Assembly: GCA_943704525.1 (NCBI GenBank)
Contig: CALSCQ010000082.1
Coordinates: 1 to 59,300, forward strand
Source of the DNA: Pigoraptor vietnamica
Lineage: Eukaryota > Opisthokonta > Filasterea
DNA: 59,300 bases
Direction: 5' to 3'
In this document: in pieces, positions 8,342-34,254 of the stretch
How positions within the stretch are numbered: position 1 is the first letter of the stretch
Layout of the letters: the number at the start of each line of letters is the position of its first letter
Translations under genes and position numbers: made by a program
The notes under the pieces: model-generated
The model's input: the letters and a program-made list of their open reading frames with translations, nothing else
Told to the model about the DNA's origin: nothing
Databases searched by the model: none

Positions 8342-8850
8342 TCTCGCCCACACACTAAGAAACACCTCCCCCGATCTCTTTGTCAGCGACTGCCTTTATG
8401 TTTTGCGAAGTAGAAGACTTTGGCCCGGCCACATTCCTCGGCAATTGCGTCATTTGAAAGTGATGACTTAGTGATGTCACAAATTTCATGATGTCATAGT
8501 GGCGTCAATTTCGGGCTTCCTCGGTTTGAATTTTCACTCACACAAAGCAAACTCTCGTCGTGAACGCACTTTGCGCATGTTTCTCTGTCTGCCCATTTCC
8601 TTGCGCACCTCTGTCTCCCACACGGCATCAGTAAGCGCTAGTGACTTTCTATCGACGGCGAGACGGAGGGGGGCTTTCGCTGTGCGATTGTCGACTTTGA
8701 GCCCCTGCGTGGGTTGCGACACTTTAATCGCAACCCGCCTACACCAACACGGCGTTGGACTTCGCTTTCATCTTCGTTATAGTGCGGCACTGATAGTGGG
8801 CGTTGGCGGGTCGGCAAAGGGGCAACGCGGGACGTGGGCCGCTGCGCCTC
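8342..8850. promoter_or_regulatory. Divergent promoter region of B9D1 and the ORP gene
   Basis: A 509-bp region separates two start codons facing away from each other. It contains two copies of the CRE/ATF-like octamer tgatgtca (8472-8479 and 8489-8496, 17 bp apart) inside an A/T-rich patch, with related tgatga and gcgtca elements nearby. No credible gene lies here. Confidence 0.5.
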
Positions 8851-11800
8851 ATGTCATCCGAAATGGCCACCATGACGGCGCCGGGCGTCCTCGAGGGACC
8901 CCTAAACAAATGGACAAACTACGGTGCGTCGTTGCTTCACCTGCGTCCGTGTTGCGCATGAACTGCAGTGTGCTGCGTCGGAGTTTGGCGGGCTGGGCAT
9001 TGAGAAGAGTGTTCTCGTTTTGCGCAGTGAGCGGTTGGCAGTACCGGTGGTTCGTGCTCGATACGGCAGCAGGAGAGCTCTCGTACTACACCGGGAAGAA
9101 CCGCGGCGGCAAATGCAGGGGCCGCCTCAGCGTGGCGAGCATGGACGTGTCCCTGGACGAGGGCGAGGACAGCCTCTTCTCTGTCGTCTCTGGGTCCGAG
9201 TCGTACTTTCTGCGCGCAAAGAGTGACGAGGAGCGCATGAAGTGGGTCACCGCCATTAACGACGCCAAGCGGCGCCTCAACATTGAGCGCAGGGGGTCGC
9301 AGCCATCGTCTGTGGGGGTGGTCGGCTCGCCCGCGGGACCTTCGATTGCGCCCGTGGCCTTGACGCCGGCGTCCCTCTCGACGCTTCCTGCGGGTCCCGT
9401 GCCCCTGCAGACGCAAGGTCCTGTCATCTCCGCGGAGACTCCCACGGGCGCAAGCCGCACGCGTGCCATGACGACTTCGCTGCACAACAAGCTGATTGAG
9501 GCACAGACGTATCGCCGCCTGCTGGAGCAGCAGCTCGAGGGTCTCTACGTCTCCCTCACGCAGAACGACGGCGCCGTGGTGCAGCTCGACACGTCCGCGA
9601 ACCTCGTGGCCTCGGACGACCCACGCGCAACCATCACGGTCGCGCGCACGACGTGGACGGCCATGTTCCGCGCCTTTGATCAGTGCCTGTCGATCATTGC
9701 GTCGGGCGAGGGCGTCGAGGCGATGCGGCGGCCGTCGGACGCTGCTCGGGCGCGCTCTGGAAGCGATCACGGGTCGCAGTCCCCCGGTCGCCGCGCCGGC
9801 CACCGCACGGCCACGATGCGGCACGCGTCCAAGGGCGGCGAGGAGGACGATGAGGACGAGTTTTACGACGCCGACGATTGGCTGTCCGACGACGGCGAGG
9901 GCAACGACGGGAGCGGGGAAGGGACGGAGGGCGGACCCTCCCCGAGCGGCGGACCGACGGGTGGATGGGCGACGGGCCCGTACAAGGACTACGACCCGGA
10001 CGCCGACGACGGCCTTTCGGACGAGGACGGGTCGAACAGCGAGCACAAGAGCGTGATTCTGCACCTGCTGTCGCAGCTGCGGATTGGCATGGACCTGACG
10101 AAGGTCGTCCTGCCCACGTTCATCCTCGAGAGGCGGTCGCTGCTGGAGATGTACGCCGATTTTTTCGCGCACGCCGACTTCTTTGTCACGTGAGTGTCGG
10201 CGGCATGTGCGGGCACCTTGGCACGTGCGTCTCTCTCTGTTCGGTAGTGTCGACCGATCTGTGCGACTAATTGGGACTTGTGTGGCCGCGCAGCATTCCG
10301 GACTTTGCCGATCCCGCGGACCGCATGATGCAGGTGGTGCGCTGGTACCTCTCCTCCTTCCACGTGGGACGCAAGGTGAGGGGCGCGAGCGTGTACACAT
10401 GTCACGTGTGTGCGAACAGTGTTGATCGCATGGTCGACTGTATGTGGCCGTGCTTTTGTTGATGTTAGTAGCGGTTGTGTAGACGTGCGTGTGCATGTGT
10501 CACATTGTGCGCGAACTGTGGATGCTGCAGATGCGCGTAGCCATGTTAGTCGCGTGCTATGTGGTGTACAAGGGGATTGTTTTGTTCTCTGTTGTTGAGT
10601 GTGCGTGGTGTGCCCCGCGCAGAGCACGGTGGCCAAGAAGCCGTACAATCCAATCATCGGCGAAACCTTCCGCTGCGCGTACAACCTCGAGGACATCAAC
10701 TGCGGCTCGCTGTCGTTCATCGCGGAACAGGTGTCGCACCATCCGCCCGGTGAGCATGCGTGTATTCGCTGCGCTCTCGATTTGCTGAGATTGCGCGCCG
10801 CCAATAGTTTGCCGTCTGTCGGATGTGTGTTTGCGAGGTCTCGCCTCACAAAGTATGTGTACCGCAGTGTCCGCCTTCTATGCGGAGGACAAGGAGAAGG
10901 GCATCGCGCTTAACGCGCACATCTGGACAAAGTCAAAGTTCCTCGGCATGTCGGTGGGCGTGCTCAACGTCGGCTACGGCCTCGTCACGCTCACGAAGCT
11001 TGGAGAGACGTACCGCATCACCTTCCCTGACGCCTACGCCCGCTCGATTCTCACTGTGCCGTGGGTGGAGCTCGGCGGGAAGACCACGATCACGTGCGAG
11101 AAGACGGGCTACCAGGCGCAGATCGAGTTCCTCACCAAGGTGTGTGGCGCGCTGTCTTGCGCCCCTTCTTGTGTGCGAATCTTTGTCGTGTGCGTGCCAG
11201 AGTGCGCTTGTGTGCGCCTGATGATGCCCGTGCGCTCTACCTCATCTGCCTCACTCGCCGCAGCCTACCTTTGGCAAGCCCAACAAGATCACGTGCGAGG
11301 TGTCGCAAGCGGGCAGCGAGCCGTTCGCGCGCATTTTCGGCGAGTGGAACGGCGTCATGTACATCAAGGACAACAAGACGCAGGTGTGCGCTCGGCCTCT
11401 CTGTCCCCTCTGTGTGCCCTCCCCCTCACCGTGCAGGCTCCTCGTACAGCTACGGCTGTGTGTTGACTCTCACTCTCTGCAGGAGACAAAGGTCTTTATC
11501 GATACGAAGGCGCTTCCCATCATCCGAAAGCAAGTGCCGCGCGTCAGCGAGCAGATTGAGTTCGAGTCTCGACGGTGCGTTGGGGTGTACCTTTTCCTTG
11601 CGCCCTCACAACCCTTTCGACCCGTTCGCTAATTCGCTGAGACCGACGTTAATTTTTTTTTTTTTTTTTAAATTAACCGCTCGGTGCAGTCTGTGGAAGG
11701 AGGTCACCGAGGCATTGCGAGTGGGCGATGTGGCACGCGCGACCGAATTCAAGATGAAGCTCGAGGCCCGCCAGCGCAGCGAAGAGCGGGAGCGAAAGGA

Positions 11801-11918
11801 GAAGAACGAGGTGTTCCAGCCCGCCCTCTTCAACCCCACAGAGGACGGCTGGATGTACAAGACTCCCATCGAAGGGTTCATGCAGGCCGGGCCCGCGGGC
11901 GACGACGGGGCGATTTGA
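8851..11918 (+). CDS. Oxysterol-binding protein-related protein (ORP9/10/11 type): PH, FFAT-like motif and ORD
   Basis: Eight exons: 8851-8923, 9028-10189, 10294-10375, 10623-10749, 10868-11139, 11264-11383, 11483-11574 and 11690-11918, giving 718 residues. A PH domain occupies about residues 12-110 ([40 protein letters not shown]), closest in layout to ORP9/10/11. An acidic linker holds EFYDADD (302-308), a good FFAT-like motif for binding VAP proteins on the ER. The sterol/PI4P transfer domain has [11 protein letters not shown] and the fingerprint EQVSHHPP (474-481), then [12 protein letters not shown] and [10 protein letters not shown]. The protein should exchange lipids at ER-Golgi or ER-endosome contacts. 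The start ATG at 8851 is followed by two more in-frame ATGs. The last intron carries a T17 run (11653-11669). Confidence 0.93.
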
Positions 11919-12376
11919 GCGCGCTGTCTGCTGTTTAATTAACTGTCTGTTCGCGTGCCACTTGCGAGCAATTTGTGGATGACACTGGGGAGAAGGAGAA
12001 GGAGAGGGGCGGGGAATGTTCGTTCGAGCGCTTTCCGTGACGCCTGTCGAGGAAGGTGAGTCCGTCTAAATTGCCATTGGGCCGTTGCGTGTCCTCTACC
12101 TTTACTATTAACTGCGGTTTCAACGTACGGTGGATGTTTCGGCTCGTTATCCTTATGATAACCGCCGCAATCGGGTGAATGTTTGCGGATGTTATCACTT
12201 GTCTGAGCACTCCCGGATGTGCAGTCCCCTTCGAACGATAACAGCAGGCAATTAGCGACCCTCTCCTCCCCCGTCTTCATTCTGAATCCCCTCTCTGACT
12301 GAAACCTTCTTCTTTCATCGTGCACTCTTCGTGGCGCGTACTTCCTTTCCAAACGTCTCTCTATTCTGCCGCCAAC
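11919..12376. other. Intergenic region before the giant intronless gene
   Basis: These 458 bp lie between the ORP stop and the giant gene's start, with both genes on the plus strand. They must carry the ORP terminator and the promoter of the giant gene. Purine-rich (gagaaggagaaggagagg) and pyrimidine-rich stretches are present, but I recognise no defined element. Confidence 0.35.
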
Positions 12377-15300
12377 ATGGGCCGGCAGCGCCTTCTCATT
12401 GCGTTGACCGCCTTCCTCGCGGTCGCTCTTTGTCCCCATGGCCTCTATGCCGACAACCCCTCTTCTCAGTCGCCTCGCTGGTCGCTCAACCTGGGCGCGG
12501 GCTATCGCGGGGAGACAACGTCGTCCCTCTGCGACGTCCTTGACGCAGTCGTGGCGAACCCTACGTCCCCGGACGGCTTCGCAATTCCCTCGCTGCAACA
12601 ACTGACGTGGGTAGCGGCGGCGTGCAACAACGCGCGCGACATTACGGACGTCCAGTATGCGTCGGGCTGGGAGGCGTCGGAGTTTGCGGTCGATGGCATT
12701 CCTCAGCTTGTCGCCACCCTCGCGTCGCCCGAAGTGTCCCGCTCGGTGCAGGCGTCCCTTGGGGACGACGGACTCCCCAGCGTCACCGTCACCGTCGCTT
12801 TTCGCGGTATGTTGACGGGGACAGCCGGCGGCACGTCCTTCAGTGCCGGCTTTGAAGGTACTGTGAGTCTTGTCGTCGGCGGCGTCCCGTCTGCGCTTGC
12901 GGGCCACGGTGCATTTGCCTGGAGGGGCGCACTGTCCGGTGAGCCTTCGGGAACGTCGCTGCTGTTCGACGACGACTTGTTTGACGGCGTGGCCCCGTCG
13001 CTCATCGTCGACCTCGCGCACCAAGCGCCGGATGCGACTGCCGTGAATGCGCTTGTGGCGGCCGTGTCGCACGCCGCGCACATTCGCGCCGTGCTCGACG
13101 ATTTCAGCGCCCTCCCCACTGGCGCAATGCCTAGCATCCGCGGGGCGTTCCCCGACTACCGCTCCCTGCCTCAGCTCGGTGAGGATCACGTGGTTGTCGG
13201 GCGCCTGCTCCTCCGGGACGGGTCGCTCGTGCCGGGTGCGTTGCTTCGCGCAACCTCGGTGTCCCCCAACCCGACGCAACTCTCGACGATCGCTGCCACG
13301 GTTCGCCAAGCCGCTACAGGCCTCTCGCGCGGACTCTGCGACGACGTGCGCGTCGCAAATGCCACGCTATCGGCGTCGGTGAGCGCAGCCATGTTCTTCG
13401 ATGGCACCACATTACGTCGAGTGGCTGTGTCGGCGTCGACCAGCGCCGTCCTGCAGTGCGTCGTGGACGACTCGGCGGTGGGCTTCCTGTCGCTGGCGCT
13501 GTCCGTGGGCGTGGACGCCTCCAAGCCACCCGCCGCGTGGCCGGCAACGGTCTTCCTGCAAGATTCGGTCGCCGCCGTCGCGATGACCAAGGCCGCGCGC
13601 CTGTCGCCGCGTGGGTTCGTTGGCGCATACATTGCCGTCTCAATTGGGGGCATCACGCGTCCATTCACGGCCATGCGCTCCAACATCTTCGGCGACGACG
13701 GCGCAGGCATACTGTTACCCGACATTTCCCTCGACTCGGCGACCACGCTCGCGTCCGTTGCGGGCGCCATTCGCCGTCTCGTTTCTCAGGATATCCCCCA
13801 GCTTGACGCCGCCGTCGAGGCTGTGCTGGCAGACGACCGAACCCGCGAAATCTTCGACGCGTACCGCGTGGGCTGCAAGACGCCGACGCTCATCGGCCTG
13901 TTGACTGCGGCATTTAGTGCGTGGGCGCACGGCACGGTGAGCCTGCGGCTGCGTGTGGGCGGGAGCGCGCTCTCCTCGCGGCACGTTGACCTGTCTGCCG
14001 CGCTGTCGTTCGCCGTCGACCTGCAAATCGGGGTGCAAGTCCATTCTACCTCGTGGGCGGACATCGACTGGCTCTCCGCACGGCTGCACGGTGCACTGGA
14101 GAGTGGCTTCCGCACGATTTCGGAATACGTAAAGAACGTCCTGAGCGGAGGAACGTTTTCCATGCCGAGTCTCAAGTCGGCGAAAGTCGCCGCAATCGAC
14201 ATCAAGGGGTTCGTCGCCGCGTCACTCAACGTCTCGGTTGATGCGGCCGGCGTCGTTGTGCACGCAGCGGCGGCCGGCGCAGTGGACTCGCAGTTGTCCG
14301 CGGTCGTGTCGGTTGACTTCGAAGAGGGTCGGCAGCTACTCTTGTTCTCGGGCGCCACGTTCGTCTGGGACTCGGGGTCCAACGAGACGTCGGCCGCCTA
14401 TTCGAGTGCGCACACCAGCTTGTATCGCCGTTTCCTGTGCACGCCCTCGGGCTTTTTCGTGGACGTCGACGTGGCGATTAGGGACGTGGCCAACAAGCTG
14501 GAGGATGCGATCGCGTCGAAGGCATCTTGGGCGGGCAAGCGCATCATGCCGACGTCGCTGACCGTCGGCACATTTGCCGGAGCGTCGATTGTCGACATTT
14601 GGGACATGCTCTGCAAGCGGATGGCACGCCAGCACTCGGGCTCGGTGGGTTTGGTTGAGCTCTACGTCGGATTGATTTCGCTCATGCGCGACGTCGCGAG
14701 TTGGACCCCCTTTGCCGTCGCCCTTCCGTCGTTCACTTTGCTGTCTGGGAACGTACAAGTGGGCTTCCGCATCTCCGAGATGCAGACGTTCACGATCGAC
14801 CGAGACGCCTGGCCGATGCTGGACACGACGCGACTGCGCGGGTCGGTGCTGGTGCGTGCGGCGTTTGGCTGCGCGCTCAAGAGAGAGTCCCTCGACGTGC
14901 AACTCCATGTGCGCGCGGCCGCAAACATGTCCGGATGGACGGTGCCCTTCCGGATGGACATGATGCCAGGCACTGTGACAGACGGTCACGTCTCGGCGCT
15001 CGTCGACTTGTCCACCACGGGTTCGGTCACGGCGGCGCTCGAATTCGGCGCCCGCGTTGCATTGCGCCCCATGGATGGCGGCGAGCCGTGGCTGGACTTT
15101 AGCGTGCGCGGATTGCGGCTTGCAGTCCGTGACGAGGATTCGCAGACATCGACCCCACCCACGGTTGAGATCCGGACGAGCGCCGACTTCGGAATGGCGC
15201 CCGCGCTGATCGTCGCTGCGCTGAAAGACGTCGTGTTGGGGGCCGCGGCTAAGCTCCAGTCCGGCGCTCTTCGCAACCCGCTCCCTCCGGTCAAAACGGC

Positions 15301-18300
15301 GACCCTCGCAAAGGCGGTCGATGCGTTTACGAGGAAGGTGGAGAGATCGTACATGACGTGGTTCAACACGTTTTCCGACGCGGCGCTTGCGGGCTTCGTG
15401 TCGCTGACGTCGGACGTGTGCTTCAAGGCGGTGCCCTATCCGGCGACGATACGCTTCCGGGTGAACGCAAACATCGAGCTCAACTGCGTGGTGGATGCGT
15501 CGGCGGCTACCTCGCTGTCCGCGTTTGAGCAGTCCATCGCCCGTGCTCTCGACGCCTGCGGCGCGTCGGCATTTTTCCGCGTCCAGGTCAACCAAACGGA
15601 CGCAGACGGCAGCTGCGGGGACGTCGCCCTCTACCCCGCAGTCGCCGGTCAGGCGTACAGCGTCGACATGGTCACGTCCGATAAATTTCTCGGTGCCGCC
15701 TCCTTCAACCTGCCGGCGTTTCCCGCGTTCACCGATTGGGACGACCTTGCGCACCTCTTGAATTCCGTGTTCGAGAGCGAGTCCCGCGGCGGCATTCGCC
15801 CATACATCACGACGGTGGACGTCGCGGACCACGTTCCGGAAGCGCTCCGCCCCGTCTTTCCGAGCAGGCTTCCGCTCGTGGGCGTGAACGTCTCATTCGC
15901 AGTGGATGCCGCGGCCTCGCTCGGCGGTGACGGCGCGGCCGATAGCGTCGATGCCTCGAACGCGGAGCTCCGCGCGTCTGTCTTTCTCAGAGGTAGCCGG
16001 GCCGTCAGTTCGGAACTTCGCTCGGCCGCGTCCGTCGGGCTCGCGGCCGTGCTTGGGGCACCGCCGCCGGAGACTGTCATGATCACCACGAAGATGCAGG
16101 GCGACGTGACCCTCGATACCCTCGTCGCTGCGCCGAACAATACGCTCGACGTGGAATTCTCGATCGTCGTCCGCAAGACGCTTCCCGCCGGCGGCTTTTC
16201 CGTCGCCGATGGGAGCGTGCGCGGGAGCCTTACCCTTCAAGCGGGCGCGCGCAGCGAGGACGCGCTTCGAGCGGCATTTGCCTCACTACTTCCGGCCGAG
16301 TGGCGCGGCGTCCTCTCTTTCGACGTCCGCGGCTCTGCCAGCGATCCCACCCCTCAGCTGTGGGTGTCCCTCACGCGAACGGAGGTGTCGCCGGGCGTGT
16401 GGGTAATACCGCGGGGCATCATCGTGATGAACAACCTCCTTCCGGGACTGGCGAGCTACATATCACACGTGCCGCGCTTCCTGGACGTCCTCAAGGTCAC
16501 GCACATGAACATGTCCCTGCAAGCCTCCGCGGTAGGGTCGGCTGAGTCGGCGAATGGGCGCCTCGGCTTTCTCAGCCTCGAAGCGAAGAACGTGGCGGCC
16601 AGTGCGCGCACGGAGGTGGCCCTCGCACTTCGCGAGCCCACGAATGTCAGAAAGCTGCTTCGCGCGTTTGGCGACGTTTCCCTGCTCTCCACCGTGGTCG
16701 ACATTCGCTGGGCGCTCTCCGCCGCCGTCTCTGTCGCGGAAGTGGACTTTGGCGCCGTCGAACTCCACGTGCCCGTCCTCAGCGGGGTTCGCTTTCTGAT
16801 CGATGCCGTGCTGACGCCGGAAAACATGACGGCGACCGCAATGGCACAGGCGACGCAAGATTGGCGAGTGGTCCTGGATCACGCGCTCGACAGCGCCCGC
16901 CTGGCGTTTGAGCGCGTTGCTTCCATCGACTATGCGTCGCCGTGCGGGTGGATCGATGCGGCGCTGATGCTGCACGACGCCGCCGTTTGCTTTCCTCCCG
17001 CGGCGGCGTCGCTGCCGTTCCTCAAGAAAAGCGCGGCGGCAGCGTCGCAAGATGCAGTGGGCCGCTTGCTCGAGAATGTGCGGTCACGCGCGTGCGCGAA
17101 CGGAGAGTCGTGGACGGTCGCAACCATGTGCGCAGTGCTCGACACGGAACTTGGCCAGGGCGCGTGCCGCGCGGTGCGACTGACCGAGGTGTCGCTGGAA
17201 GTTGACGTTGGGTTCTCGAGGGCCGTGTCCTTCGCGGACCAGTTTGCCGTCAACTTTGGCGCCCTTGTGCCCCTCAGTGGCATGAAGGCCGGCGTCGGCA
17301 CCGCGGGCGGGACGACTCTTTCGGCGGCGGTGGACGTGGAATTGCTCCTCTCGGCAGACTGGCGCGGCGGTTCTGAGCCTTCGATTCGCCTGCGACCGCA
17401 GTCGCACATTACCGTCGAGTGCAGCGCGCAAGCCCGCGGCACAGCCAAGCTGTACATTGGCGCCATTTCCGCGTCGTTTGCGAACCTCGATGCGGCTGTG
17501 GGCGTCGACGAACCCGTGACGCTCCGTGCTTGGCTTGACGAAGACGAGAGCCCGTCCGTGTTGTTGACGGGTCACGCGCACCTGTCGGGAACTCTGAACG
17601 CGCTCGGCGAGCCGGTTTGCGACATGGCCATCTCAGTCAATGTCGCGGACGCACTCGACGCGGGCGCTTGGGACGTGAGGGAGTACTGCGAGCCGAGCCT
17701 TGCGGACGCTTGGGAGCGCGTGATCGAGAAGGCCGAGTCGCAACTGGAGAGCTACTACGGCGACGCGGTGGCCGTCGTCCAGCACATCGGCGAGGGCCTC
17801 GAGGGCTTCGCCCAGAGCTTGTTGCCGACGCTCGAGAAGGCGGCGATCCCGTTTCTCGGCGACCTCCTCATGCAGCTGCTCCCCAAGTGGATAACCGGCC
17901 GCTTCGGTGCAGAGGCGCGGCGCCTCCTCACCATTCTCCTCACGGGCCTCGTGGACTCGCTGAAGCACTCGCAAGGGTCGCGCACGATTGACGAGATCCA
18001 GCAATTCATCGTCGACGAGCTCACCCAGTACCTCTGCCAAGTGCTAAAGCCGGACTCGTGCCCGCGGTCTCCGAACGCCACCTCCGACGTGCTCGAGTGG
18101 CCGATGACGTGGACGGAAGCGGTCCGTCCGGACATTCCGGCGCTGAAGTTTGGCATCGGCGGCGGGAACCTGGCGCACCTCGAGGCCAAATGCGAACCCG
18201 AGGCGAGCATTGACGTCGCGTTTAGGGCGTCGATTGTCTTTGACAGGGCGTCGGGCATCACTCTCCGATTTAGCGAGGGCCCCGCGCTCACGGCCCACGT

Positions 18301-21300
18301 CGGAGCGGACCTGGGCAAAGGATGCGTTCTCGAGGGCACGCTCGGGTTCGTCGCGGCCGTTCTGACGGCAGACGACAGCGGGATCTCGGCAGATTTTGCG
18401 TTGTCGCGTGCGGACGGCGAATGGCAGCCGTCGTTCTCGGCATCGGCTAAGCTGGAGGGGGACATCGCGTTCGGCCTGGCCGGGTCCATCGCGGATGCCG
18501 CCTCGTCGAACCCCGACGCGTCGCAAGCTATTCCGCGCTTCGAAGCGCGCATTGGGATTGCGTGGGACGCCGACCTCGAGAGCGGGCTGGGCGCGCCACC
18601 CAAGATAGAGTTTAGCGGGTGCCGTCTCTGCCTGCAGTCCTTCCTCCGACGCATGCTCGGCAGCGCCGCCCGGCCCCTCGAGAACATTCTGGGGCCGCTG
18701 CGGAAGGCGGTGGGACCAGACGGCTTCCTCATGGCGCGCACGCAGCTGCTCGGCGAGATCACGTTCGGGAGGGACATGACGGTCATCGACTTTGCCGCAA
18801 ACATCGAGCGCGTCTACTGCCAGGGCGGCTGCGTCGGCGGCGACTACGATCGGGTCTTCCAGGCGTTGCTGGCCGTGCTCCGGCGGCTCGATACCATCGC
18901 GGGCTTCTGGTCTAGCGATGCCGGCGAGTGCGCGTCGTTCATCAAGCTCGCGGACTTCCACTTTGACCCGAGCGCGCCCGATGTGGACCCCACTATCGTC
19001 GGCGACATTCCCGAGTTTACACTGAACGCCGACGGCCTCTCGCCGGAGCATCTCGCAGCCACGCAGGACCTCTTCGACCACGTCTCCGACGGTGCGGAAT
19101 ACGGCATCAAGCTGCTTATCAACCGCAAGAACGCGGCCTCGTTCATTCTCCGCCTTCTCCGTGGCGACCCGACCTTGGAGCTCGTGCAAGTGTCGGTCGA
19201 GCCGATCATCATCGACATTGGGACGGCGTCGTGGGAGATGGTCGTGTGGTCGCCCCCGATGGTGTGGGTCGGGCTCTCCGTCTCTGCGCGGCTGGAGATC
19301 AACTTTCCCACGCTGGTCATCACGACACGGGGTATTGTCAACGCTTTCAACTCGAAGCGTGTCGCGGACCTCTTGGGGGGCGTCGGAATCCGCGTCTTGA
19401 ACGACGACGGAACGCATTACGCGCCGGTGCGAATGGAGCTCGTCCTCACGGGCTACGCGGGCGTCGGCTTCAATATTGGCGTGATTAAGGTCGGCGGCGA
19501 GGTTGCCGTGAGCCTGCGGGTGGTCGGCGCCATTGTGCTGGGGTCGCCGTCGGGAGACCGCGTCCTCTACTTTGAGGAAGTGCGCCATGCGATGTTACAT
19601 CCGGACCGCCCGATTGTCGGCTTCGACCTCGGCATTGACGTGGTGATAGAGGTACGCCTTCGCGCTTGCGTCCGGCTCTGGCGTCGGAGTCATTGCTGGG
19701 ACTTTGCGAAGCGCGACTGGAAGGTTCCGCTGTACCATCACGACTCGCTCGACGCGGCGCCAAAGCCGTCGATGCTCCGCGACGACGGCAAGCTGAACGC
19801 GGACGTCGCAAGTTACGTCGGAGATACGAAGCCGGTCGTCAAGGTGCACAGCGGCTACGTCGGCATCGTGGGCGACGACAACGCGGGCGATGCGACCGTC
19901 CCCACGCACGGGCGCACTATCTCGTTCTCGGGCCCCCTTCAATTCGAGAGCGAACCGGGCGTGCCGCTTCAGCTGCAGGTCAACGGCCGCGTCGCGAACG
20001 CCATCCACGTGCCCAAGCACGCCGACCTAAGGTACGACGTCGGCCATGACACCGCGGGGCGCGGCGTCCGCATTTCCCCCTCCGGAATGACCACGGACAT
20101 TGGCAGCGCCTCCGAAAGTGGGACGAACTTCCACTTCGGCGCGGAAGGGTGCGCTGGCATCGCCCTAACCAATCTGCGTGGTATTGCGGTGAACGTGGAG
20201 GGGTCGCCGTCGACGATGGCGTTCGAGACGGACGAATCGGCCGAAGTCTTTCTCGGCGGAGTCCCTGTGGCCTACAGGGGCGGCGTTCGCATCGCGGGGC
20301 CTGCGCGCGGCGTTCACGTGTCGGCACGGGCGGCGGAATACAGGGCGGACGCCGCCGCGCTCCGTGCGGACGACGGTCTGCGGGTCTCCCTTGACGATCC
20401 CAACAACGTGCGTAACGTGACCGTGACGACGACGGCGGAGGCGACTTCGACGCTTCGCATCGGCGCTGTTCCGGCCGGACGGTCGCTCCGGGGGTACATG
20501 GGGTCTCAGCGGGACTTTGTCATGGTGGATGAGCTCAACGATGTCGACGGCGATGCACGCGTCGACGGCGCCTCCGGACGAAACGCCGGCAACGTCACCG
20601 CATCGACGCCGGCGGGCGGCATGGTATTGACGCTGGCCAATGGCGTGGTCGTGTCGAAGACGGCGGCAAAGACGACGACGTTCTCCATGCTGCACTTTCC
20701 GGACGTCGCCCTCCATATTGTGGGTCGCGCCGGGGAAGTGACCACTACACGGCTGCTGGGCTCCGCGGACGACTCGTGGATTCGCGTGCGTGGCGTCGGG
20801 AACGGTGGCGACATGGTGTACAACATCACCGACTGCGAGCCAACGGCGCGCCTGGAGGTGCACATGGACGGCCCTGGCACGCACACGCTGTTCGTTACGC
20901 AGGCGGGCGTCATTCACAACGTGCAGTGCACCATTTCAGTGCTCTGCGACGCCGACCACGACGCCGACTGCCGCATTCGCATTGTCGCCGACGCCGAGAC
21001 GCAGCCCGTGACGGTGATCATGCACAACAACAAGCTCGTCGCGTACAACCCCGAGGACTCGCGGCAGTTCTTGACCCTCTACCATTCCAGCGTCCGGAAG
21101 CTCTCGCTCGTCTTGACTCGCATGGCAGGCGTTCCCGCCCATGTGACCAGCATCATCCCGACGCCGTTTCTCGAGACACTCGTCGACTTTTCTTCGAACG
21201 AGAACGCCAACCGCGTTTCCGTCTGCCGTTCCCACAGCGCCATCGTGGCCATCGGGCGGTTCGCGTCGTCCGTCGGACCTTCCGTGTCGGACGTGCCCTG

Positions 21301-24300
21301 CAACGTGCCCACAACGTCCCACTCTGCCCACTCTGCCGCGAGCGGAGACCCGCTCGGTCCGAACCCGATGACCGAGATCGGCGGCCAGTTCATCGCCCTC
21401 AACACCAACGACGATGGATCGCCCGTCTCGATCACGCTGAACTCCATGCGTGACGAGGCTCAGGGCTTCGATGTCGGCCCGGGATTCATCGATCCCCTGT
21501 TGCCCAACGGCGAGCACCCGACGTCCCGCCCCGCCCCGCGCACGCCCTCTCCGTGGCTCTGCGGTGAAATGAGTGCGCGCGGCATCGCCGCCGTCTTCTG
21601 TTCCGATGAGGCAAGCGCGCACACGGTGCTTTACGGCGGGAGGGTGGCCGTGAGCATCACGACGGGCGCAGGAAAGGATTGGTTGGCGGCGCACGGTTTG
21701 CCGAGCGCCGTGTCCCTCTCCGGGATCCTCGGCGCCGGCGAAGACGTGGTGTCCATTGGGGCGTGCGAGGCCGCGGTGGTCGTCGACACTGGCAGCGACG
21801 CCGACGTCGCGAGGATCGTCGCGCCCGTGCGCGATGTGACGCTTACCCTGGACGGCAACTACGACCGCGACAGCGCCGACTTTGTGGACGTGTGGGTGCT
21901 GTCGTACCCGACGGGCGTCGACCGCAACGTGATTGCGCCGCTGGGCCCATCCAGTGACCACAGGGTGGCACTTGTTGGTTATCGACACCCCGACCAGCTC
22001 ATACTGCGCCGCGGTGCACCGCCGGTGCTCTCGCCGTATGCAGGTCTTATCGCCCAGCGCAGCGCACAGGTGACTGCGGGCTCCAATCGCCCTTGGGTGG
22101 TCGCCCGCGCGGCGGCAGATGGCGCCCAGAACGTCACCGTCATTCCCGTGAACGTGAGCCCCAGCACGACGGTGCGCATCCACATGTGCGACTGGTGCCG
22201 CTACGAGATTGGGCTCCTCAACGCCAGCAGCGTCCTCTACCTGGACACCAAAGACGAAGCGGGCGTGCTGCAATCGACCTACTTTGAGGTCGCCGTTGTG
22301 CTGCCCACTGTCACGGGCGCGGGCCTCGTCTTCGTGGAGGGCGCTGATGTGACCGAGAGTCTGTTGGAGCTTGTCGTTCCCCCTTCCAGCGACGCGTCGC
22401 GGCATGTCGTCAACGTGGTACGAGTGGAGCCCGGCGGTTACACGTCCGTGGGGGTCGGGCGCCTCATCGTGAAGGCCAGTCTCTTGCGTCACATGCGGCT
22501 CGTCTCTCAACACGACGCCAGCGTCGCCGTCGACCACCCTTTCCCGTCACCTGACATTCTGATCGAGGCGGTCGCCGCCGTTGGCTCGCGAACGGTCGAC
22601 GTCGACGTTGAGCTGGCCAGTCTCAGGTCGGACATCATCCTCGTCAACGTCTCGGCTAGCATCTCCGCGTCCATTGTGAACGCCACTCTTGACGGTGCGC
22701 GGTTCGGCATCGTGGGTCTTGCCTCGGACGTTGCGCTCGACGTGCGTGGTGCGGGACAGCGCCGTGCGCGATTGGTGACGGACTGCCTGGACGTGGCGGC
22801 CGCGGGACCCACGCGACCACCGGCGTCGCACTGGTTTGCGCAGGTCGCAGGGGCGCGCGGTCTGTCCCTCTCGTCGTTGAATGCGTGCGCGTTTACACTG
22901 CACAACCTCGGACGTCTCAGCGTATCGGCGGACGCTTTCAACCTCACGGACGGCGACGACATCTCGGGGGCTCGAGCCGTTCGCAGCGATGCTTTTGTTG
23001 TTGTAGTTCTCGAAACGCAGCGCTCGCTGTCGTCCCTGAACATACGGGGTGGGCTGCTGACGCCCGGCGTTGGCGGTTACGCGGTCGAGCTGCAGCGCGC
23101 CACGTCAGTCCTCGTGCGAGGGACCGTTTCAGTGGGCGCACCGGTTGCCTTTACGTGTGGTGCGACGCAGACGGCATGGACCCTGGAGCTGTCCGGAGGG
23201 CGCGCCGGTCTGGACACCACAGCAACTGTCGGCGACGCCTTGTGCGTGGCACGCGTGGCCGTCCCCGACGGTGCGTCGGCGCCTCTTGTTCGCCTGAGCG
23301 GGACTACGCAGCTGCGCGCGCTCGCAATCGATTTCAAGAGGTCGCCCGCGTTTCCATGGACGGGCCCGCGTACCGTGTCGTCGCTCCCCGGAATCCTCAC
23401 CTGCGAGTTCGGCAACGCAACGGGCGGCGCGGCGTACCATTGGGGGCCGACCGCGACTATAACGCCGCGACTGTCGTTCTGGGACGGCAGCGCCGACGTC
23501 GTGCGTGTGGACTATCAGGTCGTTCGCCCGCGCATCACCCTCGGCCCCGACGTGACCGGCTTTGCGATGGCGCTTCCCGCAGCGGCTGGCGTTGGCTTTC
23601 CGCGTACGACCATTGTCGTTGACGCCAGCCTCGGCCTGCTGCGCGCGGACGGCGCGGCCTTCGATGTCTGTCTGGATTCGGCAAAGATGGCTTCCGCCGG
23701 ATTCCGGCTCGCGTCGTCGTCGCTCACGGGCACCGTCTGCCTCAGTCGCCCGGCCATCGAGCGGTGCCAGCAGCACCAAGTCGCCGAGGTTTCGCTACAG
23801 CACGGCTCGTCGGCGTCCGTGTTCTCGTGCGTTCAAAACGCCAACGGCACGTCGATCCTCCGTTTCGGAACGCAGGCCGATGTGGCATTTGCGAGCCCGT
23901 ATGGTCGCCTGGTCAAATACGTTGCACCCCTCTGGTTCCTGTCGAATGCGGCCGCCGTTGGCCTGTGGCTTGTTTCTGGAGTCGCGGTACTTCCCTTTAA
24001 CTTTGTGGCGCTCGTGTTTTCCGCCGCCCTCGGCTCCGTCGCGCTGAAAAGTCCCGAGGAGACAATGGCCACGGCGCTCGCCATCGCTTCACAGCGTACC
24101 GTTTTCAACTTGATGGGGCCGGCCTACTGCGGCGGCGACGCAGCCACGGAACCGGAGGCTAACCTTCGCGCGCGGACGCTGAAGCTCGTTGCGGTCGCCG
24201 TTGCGGTCGTCGCAGCCGCCGGGCTTGTCGCCAGCCGCAGAGATGGCCTTACGCAATCGATCGCTAGAATTGTTCAGGGCGTGACGCGATCCGTGCTTGC

Positions 24301-25183
24301 CATCTTTGTGTTCTATCTTCTTCCCTCGCTTGTGTTCCACCTGTCGCGCTTTGCGTGGAACGCCGAGTCGACGCTGGCGCTGGTGGCACTGGTCGTGATA
24401 GTGCCGGCGTTCTGCCACGAGAGCTGGCATGAGGGGGACGAGGGCTCGCGGCCGGGGCGATTGCAGAATCTTGGACTACTTGTCGGCGGCGCCGTGCAAC
24501 AATGTGTCGCCGCGGCCGTCCACGTGACCGTGGCGTGTCTCATGGTCGTCGTCTCTCACGTTGACCTCGTCGAGCTCAAAGTTGTGACGCCTTCGGTTTC
24601 ATTTGGGGCTGGCCTGGCGCTGTTCCTCGTCGCGTGGGGCGTCCGGGTCGTTATCATGTCTCTCGGATTAAGGGCGGATCATGTCGCTCGGGAGGACGAC
24701 GACTCGGATAGAGATCCGCTTCTCGAGAGGGACATGAAAGGGCCGTCGTGCACGCGGCGGATCTTTGTGGCTCTGATCTTTGTGGCTCTGTGCGCGTTCG
24801 AGGTGGCTTTCGCCATTACGTTCTCCGTCGCCGTGTATTCGGACCAGGGAGCTGTGGAGGACGGGGCGGCGCTCGCCGTGTGGCTGCTGTGGATGTTGTT
24901 GGGCTTCCTGTCGGGGTGTGCGATCGTCGCGTACGCTTTAATCGTTCAGCCGTTACAGTACAATGCGCTCCCCTCAAATGATATTCCCATGACGAACCAA
25001 CCGCCGACGCCGGCGAACCAACCGACGCAACCGCCGACGACGAACCAACCGCCGACGACGAACCAACCGCTGACGACGAACCAGTTGCCGATGACGAACC
25101 AACCGCCAACGACGAACCAACCGCCGACGACGGCCCTCGGTAACGGCCGACGACGACTGACAGCGACTCACCATGGCGAGTAA
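12377..25183 (+). CDS. Giant intronless surface protein (4,268 aa), bacterial-like, with multi-pass C-terminus
   Basis: A single open frame of 4,269 codons. I place the start at the ATG at 12377 because MGRQRLLIALTAFLAVALC begins a signal peptide ending near GLYADNP. A frame-consistent ATG at 12320 would put 19 polar residues before it. Residues to about 2300 are Ala/Val/Ser-rich beta-strand segments broken by short helices of the type (ID/LD)...L...AL. Around 2290-2460 is a segment (PMVWVGLSVSARLEINF, GYAGVGFNIGVIKVGG, CWDFAKRDWKVPLYHHD) that resembles a conserved region of very large bacterial proteins. It is followed by a long beta-rich, possibly beta-helical part. Residues about 3845-4197 hold about eight or nine hydrophobic membrane segments, with a charged loop DDDSDRDPLLERDMKG. 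The tail is a Thr-Asn-Gln-Pro-Pro repeat. I do not recognise a named family. It is probably a cell-surface protein, and bacterial origin is inferred. The absence of introns contrasts with nearly all neighbours. Confidence 0.85.
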   Translation: MGRQRLLIALTAFLAVALCPHGLYADNPSSQSPRWSLNLGAGYRGETTSSLCDVLDAVVANPTSPDGFAIPSLQQLTWVAAACNNARDITDVQYASGWEASEFAVDGIPQLVATLASPEVSRSVQASLGDDGLPSVTVTVAFRGMLTGTAGGTSFSAGFEGTVSLVVGGVPSALAGHGAFAWRGALSGEPSGTSLLFDDDLFDGVAPSLIVDLAHQAPDATAVNALVAAVSHAAHIRAVLDDFSALPTGAMPSIRGAFPDYRSLPQLGEDHVVVGRLLLRDGSLVPGALLRATSVSPNPTQLSTIAATVRQAATGLSRGLCDDVRVANATLSASVSAAMFFDGTTLRRVAVSASTSAVLQCVVDDSAVGFLSLALSVGVDASKPPAAWPATVFLQDSVAAVAMTKAARLSPRGFVGAYIAVSIGGITRPFTAMRSNIFGDDGAGILLPDISLDSATTLASVAGAIRRLVSQDIPQLDAAVEAVLADDRTREIFDAYRVGCKTPTLIGLLTAAFSAWAHGTVSLRLRVGGSALSSRHVDLSAALSFAVDLQIGVQVHSTSWADIDWLSARLHGALESGFRTISEYVKNVLSGGTFSMPSLKSAKVAAIDIKGFVAASLNVSVDAAGVVVHAAAAGAVDSQLSAVVSVDFEEGRQLLLFSGATFVWDSGSNETSAAYSSAHTSLYRRFLCTPSGFFVDVDVAIRDVANKLEDAIASKASWAGKRIMPTSLTVGTFAGASIVDIWDMLCKRMARQHSGSVGLVELYVGLISLMRDVASWTPFAVALPSFTLLSGNVQVGFRISEMQTFTIDRDAWPMLDTTRLRGSVLVRAAFGCALKRESLDVQLHVRAAANMSGWTVPFRMDMMPGTVTDGHVSALVDLSTTGSVTAALEFGARVALRPMDGGEPWLDFSVRGLRLAVRDEDSQTSTPPTVEIRTSADFGMAPALIVAALKDVVLGAAAKLQSGALRNPLPPVKTATLAKAVDAFTRKVERSYMTWFNTFSDAALAGFVSLTSDVCFKAVPYPATIRFRVNANIELNCVVDASAATSLSAFEQSIARALDACGASAFFRVQVNQTDADGSCGDVALYPAVAGQAYSVDMVTSDKFLGAASFNLPAFPAFTDWDDLAHLLNSVFESESRGGIRPYITTVDVADHVPEALRPVFPSRLPLVGVNVSFAVDAAASLGGDGAADSVDASNAELRASVFLRGSRAVSSELRSAASVGLAAVLGAPPPETVMITTKMQGDVTLDTLVAAPNNTLDVEFSIVVRKTLPAGGFSVADGSVRGSLTLQAGARSEDALRAAFASLLPAEWRGVLSFDVRGSASDPTPQLWVSLTRTEVSPGVWVIPRGIIVMNNLLPGLASYISHVPRFLDVLKVTHMNMSLQASAVGSAESANGRLGFLSLEAKNVAASARTEVALALREPTNVRKLLRAFGDVSLLSTVVDIRWALSAAVSVAEVDFGAVELHVPVLSGVRFLIDAVLTPENMTATAMAQATQDWRVVLDHALDSARLAFERVASIDYASPCGWIDAALMLHDAAVCFPPAAASLPFLKKSAAAASQDAVGRLLENVRSRACANGESWTVATMCAVLDTELGQGACRAVRLTEVSLEVDVGFSRAVSFADQFAVNFGALVPLSGMKAGVGTAGGTTLSAAVDVELLLSADWRGGSEPSIRLRPQSHITVECSAQARGTAKLYIGAISASFANLDAAVGVDEPVTLRAWLDEDESPSVLLTGHAHLSGTLNALGEPVCDMAISVNVADALDAGAWDVREYCEPSLADAWERVIEKAESQLESYYGDAVAVVQHIGEGLEGFAQSLLPTLEKAAIPFLGDLLMQLLPKWITGRFGAEARRLLTILLTGLVDSLKHSQGSRTIDEIQQFIVDELTQYLCQVLKPDSCPRSPNATSDVLEWPMTWTEAVRPDIPALKFGIGGGNLAHLEAKCEPEASIDVAFRASIVFDRASGITLRFSEGPALTAHVGADLGKGCVLEGTLGFVAAVLTADDSGISADFALSRADGEWQPSFSASAKLEGDIAFGLAGSIADAASSNPDASQAIPRFEARIGIAWDADLESGLGAPPKIEFSGCRLCLQSFLRRMLGSAARPLENILGPLRKAVGPDGFLMARTQLLGEITFGRDMTVIDFAANIERVYCQGGCVGGDYDRVFQALLAVLRRLDTIAGFWSSDAGECASFIKLADFHFDPSAPDVDPTIVGDIPEFTLNADGLSPEHLAATQDLFDHVSDGAEYGIKLLINRKNAASFILRLLRGDPTLELVQVSVEPIIIDIGTASWEMVVWSPPMVWVGLSVSARLEINFPTLVITTRGIVNAFNSKRVADLLGGVGIRVLNDDGTHYAPVRMELVLTGYAGVGFNIGVIKVGGEVAVSLRVVGAIVLGSPSGDRVLYFEEVRHAMLHPDRPIVGFDLGIDVVIEVRLRACVRLWRRSHCWDFAKRDWKVPLYHHDSLDAAPKPSMLRDDGKLNADVASYVGDTKPVVKVHSGYVGIVGDDNAGDATVPTHGRTISFSGPLQFESEPGVPLQLQVNGRVANAIHVPKHADLRYDVGHDTAGRGVRISPSGMTTDIGSASESGTNFHFGAEGCAGIALTNLRGIAVNVEGSPSTMAFETDESAEVFLGGVPVAYRGGVRIAGPARGVHVSARAAEYRADAAALRADDGLRVSLDDPNNVRNVTVTTTAEATSTLRIGAVPAGRSLRGYMGSQRDFVMVDELNDVDGDARVDGASGRNAGNVTASTPAGGMVLTLANGVVVSKTAAKTTTFSMLHFPDVALHIVGRAGEVTTTRLLGSADDSWIRVRGVGNGGDMVYNITDCEPTARLEVHMDGPGTHTLFVTQAGVIHNVQCTISVLCDADHDADCRIRIVADAETQPVTVIMHNNKLVAYNPEDSRQFLTLYHSSVRKLSLVLTRMAGVPAHVTSIIPTPFLETLVDFSSNENANRVSVCRSHSAIVAIGRFASSVGPSVSDVPCNVPTTSHSAHSAASGDPLGPNPMTEIGGQFIALNTNDDGSPVSITLNSMRDEAQGFDVGPGFIDPLLPNGEHPTSRPAPRTPSPWLCGEMSARGIAAVFCSDEASAHTVLYGGRVAVSITTGAGKDWLAAHGLPSAVSLSGILGAGEDVVSIGACEAAVVVDTGSDADVARIVAPVRDVTLTLDGNYDRDSADFVDVWVLSYPTGVDRNVIAPLGPSSDHRVALVGYRHPDQLILRRGAPPVLSPYAGLIAQRSAQVTAGSNRPWVVARAAADGAQNVTVIPVNVSPSTTVRIHMCDWCRYEIGLLNASSVLYLDTKDEAGVLQSTYFEVAVVLPTVTGAGLVFVEGADVTESLLELVVPPSSDASRHVVNVVRVEPGGYTSVGVGRLIVKASLLRHMRLVSQHDASVAVDHPFPSPDILIEAVAAVGSRTVDVDVELASLRSDIILVNVSASISASIVNATLDGARFGIVGLASDVALDVRGAGQRRARLVTDCLDVAAAGPTRPPASHWFAQVAGARGLSLSSLNACAFTLHNLGRLSVSADAFNLTDGDDISGARAVRSDAFVVVVLETQRSLSSLNIRGGLLTPGVGGYAVELQRATSVLVRGTVSVGAPVAFTCGATQTAWTLELSGGRAGLDTTATVGDALCVARVAVPDGASAPLVRLSGTTQLRALAIDFKRSPAFPWTGPRTVSSLPGILTCEFGNATGGAAYHWGPTATITPRLSFWDGSADVVRVDYQVVRPRITLGPDVTGFAMALPAAAGVGFPRTTIVVDASLGLLRADGAAFDVCLDSAKMASAGFRLASSSLTGTVCLSRPAIERCQQHQVAEVSLQHGSSASVFSCVQNANGTSILRFGTQADVAFASPYGRLVKYVAPLWFLSNAAAVGLWLVSGVAVLPFNFVALVFSAALGSVALKSPEETMATALAIASQRTVFNLMGPAYCGGDAATEPEANLRARTLKLVAVAVAVVAAAGLVASRRDGLTQSIARIVQGVTRSVLAIFVFYLLPSLVFHLSRFAWNAESTLALVALVVIVPAFCHESWHEGDEGSRPGRLQNLGLLVGGAVQQCVAAAVHVTVACLMVVVSHVDLVELKVVTPSVSFGAGLALFLVAWGVRVVIMSLGLRADHVAREDDDSDRDPLLERDMKGPSCTRRIFVALIFVALCAFEVAFAITFSVAVYSDQGAVEDGAALAVWLLWMLLGFLSGCAIVAYALIVQPLQYNALPSNDIPMTNQPPTPANQPTQPPTTNQPPTTNQPLTTNQLPMTNQPPTTNQPPTTALGNGRRRLTATHHGE
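24991..25131 (+). repeat. 18-bp coding minisatellite (TNQPPT repeat tail)
   Basis: About eight degenerate copies of an 18-bp unit based on acgaaccaaccgccgacg encode TNQPPT-type hexapeptides at the C-terminus of the giant protein, after its last membrane segment. Variants include ANQPTQPPT, TNQPLT and TNQLPM. Confidence 0.85.
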
Positions 25184-31650: not shown

Positions 31651-33528
31651 CACGCGCACGCACACCACATCACCGACCTTTGTGACTGCAATGTTGACGA
31701 CGCGACCTGTGCGCTCAAACGCTTCCCTGAAGGTCCAATCTCCGTAGTAAGCGCGCGTGGTCGCATCAAAGTCCGCAGGATCGACGAGAACGCCGTGCTG
31801 CATAAAGTGACGTATTTGCACCGAGAGGGGTCGGAACCACTCCCGCTTGTAACGCGTCGCAATGTCCGGCTTGATGACGTCCTCAAGCAGCTCCTTGTCG
31901 GTCTTGAGAGCCATCACGGCCGCCTGCGGTCACGTGAGGATAAAAGTGCATGTCAGCAGCGCGCGGCATGACGAGTCCTTCATCCCAACTTCACCACACA
32001 CACGTGCCTCCCACAGCAACTATCGCCAATTGATTCCAGGGACCAGCGCTCACTCCCATACATGGTAGTAGCAATCGTCAAACCACACAAACGCGGGTGG
32101 CCCGGGGACGCACCACAATGGAACCGCCGCTGGTGCCCGAGATGACCTTGGGCATGAGACCTGACTCTAGGAGCGCCTTGACAACGCCTGCAACGACAAT
32201 GCGTCAGTACGCACATGACATCACGACACGACGTGCACATTACGGCAATGTTCGCTCCGACTCACCCAAATGGTACATGGCAAGTGTGCCTGAAGCCAGA
32301 TGCAAACGAGTCGGTTATCATGAGAAAAAAGGGACACACACACCGACAGACCACACGCATACACACCACGCACACAGAGACGCAGCAACAACCAACACAA
32401 AGCCATGCCGCCCTACGCACCTCCGCCGGAGAGCATGAGCGCAGTGCGGCCGAGGGCGTTGCTGATGCGCTCGAGCAGCGCGGCCTTGTCACGTGGGGAG
32501 TGATCGAGGCACTCGTGGTCCTGGAAGTAACGCAGCGACAGACCGACCTCCTCGTCGAACGCCTCAATCATGCGCTTGGTGCCTGCCTGGGCCACCTGGG
32601 GAGCCACGGGATAAGCGCACACGGACGAATGCGGACACACACACATGCCTACCCACAAGCACACGCACATGCACGCACAGAGCAATGGCTGCTCCGTGAA
32701 TCCACGCCAACAGGCTCAGGCCACATACCATGTGCAGCCGCGGATCGTCAAGCCCGCAAAAGTGGCGGTTGAACACGGTCGTGAGAAAGAAGGCGACGTC
32801 CTTACACCTTCGGCCGGCACGCGCGGCGCGCATCGATTCGAGCGTGCGCGCCAGCAGATCGTGGTCGTAGAGGTCGGACTTTGGGTCGTCGCGCCACGCA
32901 TCGTTCCCGGACAGCCGGTCCGCCTCTTCCGCACGCGCAGCCCACGTGGCATAGGAAGTTGCCGTGACGGCCCTCTCCAGTCGCGACCAGTAGTTGCCGA
33001 AATATCTGAGAGGCCAGGAGAGAGACAGCGAGAGAGCGCTTAAGCAATGTGGGTCGTTCAGAGAACGAGACGGGAAGCGCCCACTCACCGGAGGAGCCTC
33101 ACGAAGCCAAAACAGACGAGGTTGAACACAATGCGGAGAATGATCGTGATCACGATCATGCGGCGCACGCGACGGTCTGCGCACAAGTGGCCTTGTCAGA
33201 AACAAAGCACAACCAGTTTCAACGTGCGGGTGGGGAGCACCGCGGCCAAGTACCCGCCTGCACTCAGCATGATCGCAATCGGAAGCCATGATGCCCACGT
33301 AAAGACAACGGTCACATAGTTCCATATTTCGCGGTGAATGGGCGGGAAGGGCAGCCGCAGGGGTGACGGCGAGCGGCGAGGCACGGAGGCCACACTCCTG
33401 TCGCTGTCGGCAAGGTTCGCGCCATCCGCAATGTCGCCCAGAAGGGGCTCGTCTTCTGGCGCTTGCACAGTTGCAATCGTGTGACTGCGCGCCGACATGG
33501 GCGATGCCGAGCGCACCCGCGACGCCAT
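30218..33528 (-). CDS. Patatin-domain triacylglycerol lipase (TGL3/4/5, SDP1 family)
   Basis: Twelve exons: 33528-33264, 33176-33089, 33005-32729, 32595-32421, 32289-32266, 32187-32114, 31923-31678, 31550-31410, 31247-31134, 30994-30848, 30701-30574 and 30407-30218, giving 622 residues. A membrane-associated N-terminus (WNYVTVVFTWASWLPIAIML, about 68-88) and a DUF3336-like region (YFGNYWSRLERAVTATSYATW) precede the patatin domain. The domain has an oxyanion loop LSGGGT (266-270) and MYHLGVV. The nucleophile elbow is GTSGG (Ser296), and the Asp of the dyad lies in MDGS (Asp443). IPGLMPPV and RRYIHKGAAVTYP are also family blocks. Family members release fatty acids from storage triacylglycerol at lipid droplets. 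Exon 5 is only 24 nt. The first donor (33263) is the least certain; a site nearer 33200 would also keep the frame. The exons at 31247-30848 have clear GT-AG borders. Confidence 0.9.
31595..31650. repeat. (CA)n(TA)n microsatellite in a lipase intron
   Basis: About 46 bp of pure CA repeat followed by ten bases of TA, within the intron between exons 31923-31678 and 31550-31410. Confidence 0.95.
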
Positions 33529-34254
33529 ATCTTTTGAAGTAAGCGTCGCACGCCCGAGTCGCCAATCGAACAATGAGTTCCCACGGCGCACTAAGGTGCG
33601 GCCATGCGACGAAGTGGAACAGCGCGTCAGCGTGACTGAAAAAGATAGTAGTAGCTCGACGTTGCCGGAAGTGCACCAAATCGAATACCGCAATTTGAAA
33701 CGGCCGAACAGAAATGCTAGGAGTGACAAGTAGACTGGCACTTTGGAGGGTTTGCAAGTGTGACACGTGCGGGTTTGTGTTCTTGCATGCGCGCGTGTGC
33801 GTATGCATGCGCGTGCACGCGAGTGCGTGCGTGTGTGCGCGCGTGTGTGCGTGCGTGGCAGGTGACGGCAGTGCCCAAGTGCTGGGGTTGAGAACGGCGC
33901 TTGCCGGCGGATGGTGCCCTTATTTTAGCCACAAATTTCCGCGCCGAGATCTCGCTGAGTTACTTACAGGTTACCACAAGCCAACTTTACGAAAATATTT
34001 CCGATTCGGACAAAGTGCCGTCCGTCAGCTGACGAAGGCAAGAGTGGGGTGTGAGTCTTCGAGTGGATCTGTTGATCCATAGCCCAACGGCCGCTTTCTC
34101 AAACACACGAGCGCATTTTCATTCGTGCCGTCCATTCGCACCATTTGCGCGAGAGTGCGAGTGCGAGTGCGCTGCAACCGACACTTTGCCCGCGGGAAAG
34201 GGGAGGCTTTGGAGTCGGTTACACTTGGCGTTTGCGCCGCTCCTGACACAGAAG
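33529..34254. promoter_or_regulatory. Divergent promoter region of the lipase and USP14
   Basis: A 726-bp region between divergent start codons. It includes an alternating purine-pyrimidine stretch (about 33775-33860, mostly tgtg/tgcg steps) and a gagtgcgagtgcgagtgc triplet-like direct repeat near 34154-34171. No gene is supported. Confidence 0.45.

Follow-up and report, generated by a model that had tools for sequence, protein, structure and literature searches.

The question raised by this locus is how a filasterean genome comes to encode a giant protein that looks in part like the surface proteins of bacteria, and whether that likeness reflects common ancestry. The window analyzed here, a stretch of 59,300 nucleotides from Pigoraptor vietnamica, contains a frame that is open from stop to stop at 12299-25183 (+), comprising 4,294 codons with no stop inside; its ATG at 12377 starts a protein of 4,268 residues (12377-25183, + strand; here named P0001). 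The claim of a 12.8-kb intronless open frame made in the first-pass annotation is therefore upheld; at the base composition of the window the chance of an open run of this length is about 10^-45. The signal peptide proposed in the same annotation is plausible, with a hydrophobic peak at residues 5-25 that was assigned by eye from hydropathy rather than with SignalP. Where "eight or nine" C-terminal membrane segments had been suggested, hydropathy gave eight at residues 3863-4184, counted as separate 19-residue segments with a KD value above 1.8, and the Thr-Asn-Gln-Pro-Pro tail is present as a C-terminus rich in Thr, Asn, Gln and Pro (Table 1). The GC3 of P0001 is 0.796, compared with 0.821 for the frame of a HECT ligase and 0.771 for that of a cadherin-like gene in the same window. 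That the gene is intronless within an intron-rich genome was likewise confirmed as an observation, but it is weak evidence of origin: because the conserved HECT ligase gene of the window also has one open frame of 9.1 kb, a long unbroken frame is not odd by itself here, intronlessness adds little, and we have rejected it as a sign of transfer.

Table 1. Features of the P0001 gene and of two eukaryotic genes in the window.
Feature	Position in window	Residues of P0001	Strand	Remarks
Oxysterol-binding protein gene with PH domain	8499-11918		+	Short GT-AG introns; Pfam domain across frames
Signal-peptide-like start	12377..12451	1-25	+	Follows MGRQR; hydrophobic peak 5-25 (KD 1.94), assigned by eye
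Strand-rich segments with short helices	12452..17740	26-1788	+	No demonstrated homolog
Bacterial-type upstream module	17741..18586	1789-2070	+	Helices with IPFLGDLL, strands with GTLGFV
Bacterial-type core domain	18590..19801	2072-~2475	+	Degenerate loop SGDRVLYFEE; PIVGFD...RLW...AKR
Strand-rich stretch	19802..23926	2476-3850	+	No Pfam match; RTX repeats often in this place in bacterial relatives
Possible worn-down RTX-like element GAGEDVVSIGACEAAVVVDTGSDADVARI	21650..21871	3092-3165	+	Weak similarity at ~3082-3180
Block of eight predicted membrane segments	23963..24928	3863-4184	+	Hydropathy only
Thr/Asn/Gln/Pro-rich tail and stop	24929..25183		+	18-bp tandem repeats
HECT ubiquitin ligase gene, presumably HUWE1/TOM1-like	37884-49977		-	HECT, UBM, DUF913; DUF908 below cut-off

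The genes flanking P0001 are eukaryotic and intron-bearing. The oxysterol-binding protein gene ends about 0.5 kb upstream; a single Pfam domain is split in it over three separate open frames, and within about 860 bases three GT-AG introns could be recognized by eye together with EQVSHHPP, which we take to be the signature of oxysterol-binding proteins. Downstream of P0001 lies a TCF25 gene and beyond it the HECT ligase gene, where the single long frame is accompanied by additional N-terminal exons. The window also holds, in divergent orientation, two genes (1-3044, - strand, and 3957-4949, + strand) whose products have bacterial cadherin-like domains and begin with a putative signal peptide; being 51% identical over about 310 residues they form a head-to-head paralogous pair, the (-) copy scoring above the Pfam cut-offs and the (+) copy ending after 331 codons and scoring below them. 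These neighbours are like P0001 in having signal-peptide-like starts and bacterial-type extracellular domains within the same eukaryotic window, but there is no significant sequence similarity between them and P0001 (best E 0.78). Elsewhere in the window a DUF3336 domain, presumably the N-terminal region of patatin-type lipases, is found within a single open frame at 32564-33808 (-), and an 804-codon open frame at 52028-54442 (+) is without a Pfam match at E 0.01.

Searches with P0001 itself gave no accepted match in Pfam, whether whole or in slices, nor in NCBIfam, PHROGs or PDB sequences, and tblastn retrieved nothing acceptable from plasmids at up to E 10 and matched 0 of 386 genomes of one phylum. 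An 8-mer scan of genome contigs returned 58 pattern matches, none of which was confirmed, and the viral contigs yielded no relative when they were scanned with P0001, with an alignment of bait sequences or with either of two bacterial relatives. RTX repeats (PF00353) were not reported in P0001 at E <=1, and neither the Pfam family DUF4347 nor any NCBIfam family was matched. Two candidates were rejected, namely Amastin (PF07344; E 0.048, with 14 bits where the cut-off is 27.2) and EipA (E 0.054, also below its cut-off). The earlier statement that no described eukaryotic family has this layout holds for the collections searched, since none of this kind is present in Pfam, NCBIfam or PDB sequences.

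The starting point for the comparison with bacteria was residues 2230-2480 of P0001, which resembled the region preceding the RTX repeats in bacterial giant proteins. Three bait sequences were composed and were afterwards replaced by real bacterial sequences. The first bait retrieved seven plasmid records with E values of at most 1 (Pontibrevibacter only at 0.5), including proteins annotated with DUF4347 and LEPR-XLL, and the core domain is carried on plasmids of Cyanobacteriota and Alphaproteobacteria. Eight genome loci matched a DNA pattern, and all except L008, which was rejected, are family members by tblastn (7/8). With a 12-row core profile the domain was detected in 16 of 194 sampled genomes from the phylum of Dulcicalothrix and in 16 of 299 from the phylum of an Oceanospirillales bacterium. 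Among the matches listed the core-bearing open frames measure 2,309-19,427 residues, and in one of them a stop interrupts the match; five found in genomes from the phylum of L006 (L061, L062, L063, L044 and L045) have about 11,600-19,400 residues. Against PDB sequences the core profile gave a single match at chance level (12.1 bits, E 0.96), and the bacterial region of about 700 residues is known as sequence and is without a Pfam family in the searches made. One copy from the cyanobacterial sample, L028 (G176), groups in the tree with copies from the Pseudomonadota sample, a placement which suggests exchange between phyla.

RTX repeats were found in four of five plasmid segments, which matched no other Pfam family, and in both of the bacterial relatives scanned at length, one of which (L068) also carries DUF4347. 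No membrane segment with a KD value >=1.8 was seen in the stretch examined of any of 15 bacterial relatives (0/15; the C-terminus is in view in nine, and six frames run off the stretch). In Thalassospira the gene is followed by one small gene and then by genes of the HlyD, efflux and TolC families. Taken together, these gene neighbours, the frequent RTX repeats and the lack of any visible membrane segment make it likely that the bacterial relatives are exported by type I secretion.

Profile-profile comparison had been proposed in the first-pass annotation as a check of the bacterial resemblance, and with hhalign the bacterial giants do match P0001. Five bacterial segments compared with the whole protein gave one match, at residues 2071-2419 (E 1.4e-5). 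The 12-row core profile reached E 3.1e-5 in hhalign and only 3.6 bits in HMMER, while a core profile of 39 rows scored 23.3 bits in HMMER (E 1.8e-9 for one target, residues 2072-2442) and E 3.6e-7 in hhalign; the best of 2,000 shuffles scored 4.4 bits in HMMER, and in hhalign the best of 100 shuffles scored 24.1 against 65.9. A second profile of 32 rows, made from the 415 residues that precede the core in the bacteria, matched residues 1789-2070 (HMMER domain E 3e-9 for one target; hhalign 7.7e-8) with 25.5 bits against a maximum of 4.3 in 1,000 shuffles. The two profiles match adjoining stretches of P0001 in the order in which they occur in bacteria, a module of about 280 residues being followed by a core of about 400. 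When both were combined in a profile of 28 rows, HMMER gave 55.1 bits in a single domain over residues 1789-2253 (E 4.9e-14 for P0001 as the sole target and a set database size of 177,635) and hhalign a probability of 98.2 with E 3e-14 over residues 1802-2419; of the controls, 1,000 local shuffles reached at most 1.1 bits and 200 other ORFs at most 8.9. Redundant rows had been removed from all of these profiles (core 56 to 39, upstream 54 to 32, combined 49 to 28), as had rows which did not span the region.

Two half-profiles which share no rows found the same place in P0001. The cyanobacterial half (17 rows) did so with E 8.1e-10 in hhalign and 0.02 in HMMER, and the remaining 11 rows, the Pseudomonadota half, with 8.4e-12 in hhalign and 2.9e-5 in HMMER, where only residues 1980-2144 were covered. 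As the HMMER domains are partial (1789-2253 and 1980-2144), the full span from 1789 to about 2475 rests on hhalign, and the end of the core at about 2475 was taken from the alignment and from the match of the Pseudomonadota half-profile to residues 1788-2477. The hhalign match is co-linear over 555-632 columns; P0001 and the bacterial family are about 14-22% identical, and of 84 strongly conserved columns that could be aligned 31 are identical and 15 similar in P0001. The sequence CWDFAKRDWKVPLYHHD, with which the first-pass annotation had ended a region near residues 2290-2460, occupies residues 2440-2456, shortly before the bacterial-type domain ends. An acidic loop of the core of the type DxDxDGKxRxxE, which by analogy may bind calcium, reads SPSGDRVLYFEE in P0001, so that one D and the E are kept and the DxDG part is lost.

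The core profile is specific, giving <=1.3 bits in 80 core-less ORFs, in 27 segments of the giants from beyond the module and core and in 120 other ORFs of the window. The upstream profile is less so: it also matches other parts of the bacterial giants, with up to 144.5 bits, and in L077, a giant frame without the core, it reaches 20.3 bits at profile positions 19-119, which are unmatched in P0001; in the other ORFs of the window it finds nothing above 0 bits. We read these additional matches as probable repeats, either of the module or of neighbouring domains. Judged from these alignments, residues 1789 to about 2475 of P0001 are homologous to the "module plus core" of the bacterial giants. 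The earlier description of the whole ectodomain as bacterial-like can be sustained for this part and not for residues 26-1788 and 2476-3850, which have no demonstrated homolog. In a tree P0001 sits on a branch of length 3.16 with a support of 59/63 and is not placed.

Relative to shuffled sequence, long amphipathic strands of P0001 are 4.4 times as frequent at residues 500-1750 and 4.1 times at 2250-2750, compared with 0.9 times in the HECT frame, 1.9 times in the cadherin-like frame and 1.6-3.9 times in the bacterial module plus core (four proteins); such an excess fits, and does not prove, the presence of worn-down module copies in the N-terminal part. At residues ~1377-1450 there is a weak hint of similarity with the profiles modB (5.1 bits, controls up to 3.4) and modBP (6.5, controls up to 5.1), but the "up" profile (2.2 against 2.3) and the core profile (-2.0 against 4.4; 500 shuffles each) remain below their control maxima, and a second bacterial-type module is not claimed there. 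Bacterial segments from far upstream, when compared with the N-terminus of P0001, gave 3.6 bits against 2.1 for the best profile, and single proteins mostly scored no higher than controls. The similarity at the possible RTX-like element varies with the query: the downstream segment of L002 gave 8.1 bits against 0.6 (60 shuffles), that of L075 4.7 against -2.0 and that of L073 2.8 against 2.7, and the six other downstream queries did not exceed their controls in sequence score. Structure prediction added little, the AlphaFold model of P0001 residues 1760-2480 (mean pLDDT 32.5) being useless and that of the bacterial module (mean pLDDT 47.5) weak. A fold search with the bacterial model listed FadL, gasdermin, ApoB100, MTTP and lipovitellin without significance (best E 0.12, probability <=0.30, in the best 50 of 395 matches); these are proteins whose sheets have a lipid or membrane face.

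Several other explanations have to be weighed against a bacterial origin of this region. A chance or convergent similarity between strand-rich, Ala/Val-rich sequences, without common ancestry, could be argued from the low identity (only ~14-22%), from the richness of P0001 in amphipathic strands and from the fact that the family was picked through the resemblance of one stretch of P0001. This is very improbable and the sequence comparisons already largely refute it, as the hhalign match is co-linear over its 555-632 columns, the 55.1 bits of the combined profile stand against 1.1 in local shuffles and 8.9 in other ORFs, and separate profiles match adjoining stretches in the right order, the upstream one lying outside the initial resemblance. 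A bacterial-looking 12.8-kb frame without introns might also come from bacterial contamination or an assembly chimera; we regard this as extremely improbable, given that P0001 has eight membrane segments where none were seen in the 15 bacterial relatives, that its GC3 is as in its neighbours, that a eukaryotic gene with introns ends about 0.5 kb upstream of it, and that tblastn found no close copy in the 386 genomes or the plasmid set.

More serious, though still unlikely, is the possibility that the module is ancient and shared, being either a vertically inherited eukaryotic family or one which passed from eukaryotes to bacteria. The very large distance, a tree that does not place P0001 and a GC3 resembling that of the neighbours are all consistent with such a history; the occurrence of the core in two bacterial phyla with large internal diversity argues against it, as does the absence of any such eukaryotic family from Pfam, NCBIfam and PDB sequences, which says little about unnamed relatives. 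A further alternative concerns function: the conserved modules could form large amphipathic beta-sheets with lipids or other hydrophobic material as their ligands, which would make the protein a carrier of lipids or hydrophobes and not an adhesin. The excess of long amphipathic strands noted above for residues 500-1750 and 2250-2750 and the inclusion of FadL, gasdermin, ApoB100, MTTP and lipovitellin among the fold matches point in this direction, but those matches are non-significant (best E 0.12 in the best 50 of 395) and come from a model with a mean pLDDT of 47.5, and the bacterial module plus core reaches only 1.6-3.9 times in four proteins, a range that overlaps the cadherin-like control at 1.9, so that we consider a carrier rather improbable.

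The explanation which we favour, and hold to be reasonably probable, is that P0001 contains an old giant ectodomain of bacterial derivation which has been adapted to eukaryotic secretion and serves in attachment or contact. Its middle part (1789-~2475) shares an ancestor with the bacterial module plus core, probably owing to an old transfer from bacteria to a eukaryote, after which the calcium-binding RTX part would have been lost, a signal peptide and an anchor gained, and codon usage adapted to the host. From its sequence features P0001 is probably a cell-surface protein: it would enter the ER by means of its signal peptide, and the block of eight segments, followed by a short Thr/Pro-rich tail, would anchor it in the plasma membrane and leave some 3,850 residues on the outer side. 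A likely job for such a protein would be extended surface contact in the form of adhesion to surfaces, other cells or bacterial prey; we infer the direction of transfer, the location and the function alike. The fusion of a bacterial ectodomain to a multi-pass anchor, as postulated in the first-pass annotation, gains support from the homology at 1789-~2475 and from the fact that a membrane segment was seen in the stretch examined in 0/15 bacterial relatives (nine with the C-terminus in view), and does not gain it for the direction of transfer, with a tree support of 59/63.

What had been a vague resemblance can now be located and has been tested: a giant protein of a eukaryote and the giants of bacteria have a homologous region in common. 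The work also delimits, in the giants of two bacterial phyla, some 700 residues without a Pfam match. If the transfer is true, it shows how a protein that was probably built for export by the type I route can come to use the ER and the plasma membrane. We also entertain, as quite improbable, a bolder version in which a type-I-secreted bacterial giant was rebuilt as a multi-pass receptor, amphipathic sheet modules, repeated along residues 500-2750, binding lipid or hydrophobic cell surfaces such as those of prey bacteria and the eight-segment block signalling contact; in the improbable event that this were true, the protein would be unlike any described family.

RTX and other type I secreted giant proteins are not known to have a Sec signal or a membrane anchor, and P0001 differs from them in its signal-peptide-like start, its eight membrane segments and the fact that RTX repeats were not detected in it. 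It differs from the DUF4347 and LEPR-XLL proteins in lacking a DUF4347 match, a domain that is present in L068. With the bacterial giants WP_101286450.1 ("LEPR-XLL domain-containing"), WP_168204493.1 ("DUF4347 domain-containing") and WP_066122221.1 ("PD40 domain-containing") P0001 shares some 690 residues of module and core in the same order, and it is like the bacterial giants in overall size (frames of 2,309-19,427 residues among the matches listed). It is unlike them in its signal-peptide-like start, its eight membrane segments and the lack of an RTX or DUF4347 match; they for their part have no membrane segment in the stretch examined (0/15) and carry RTX in 4/5 plasmid segments. Giant size is also a feature of the giant genes of Planctomycetes and other bacteria, as described in PMC5177795 and PMC11573180; Reva and Tummler (2008, cited in PMC5177795) are reported to assign more than 90% of the giant genes of bacteria to surface proteins or PKS/NRPS, and Big_9, Cadherin_4, Cadherin_5 and HemolysinCabind are named as domains that are common in huge proteins of bacteria (PMC11573180). 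No description of a eukaryotic copy of the module plus core was recognized in searches of open-access literature, and a eukaryotic copy joined to a multi-pass anchor, as in P0001, appears to be new.
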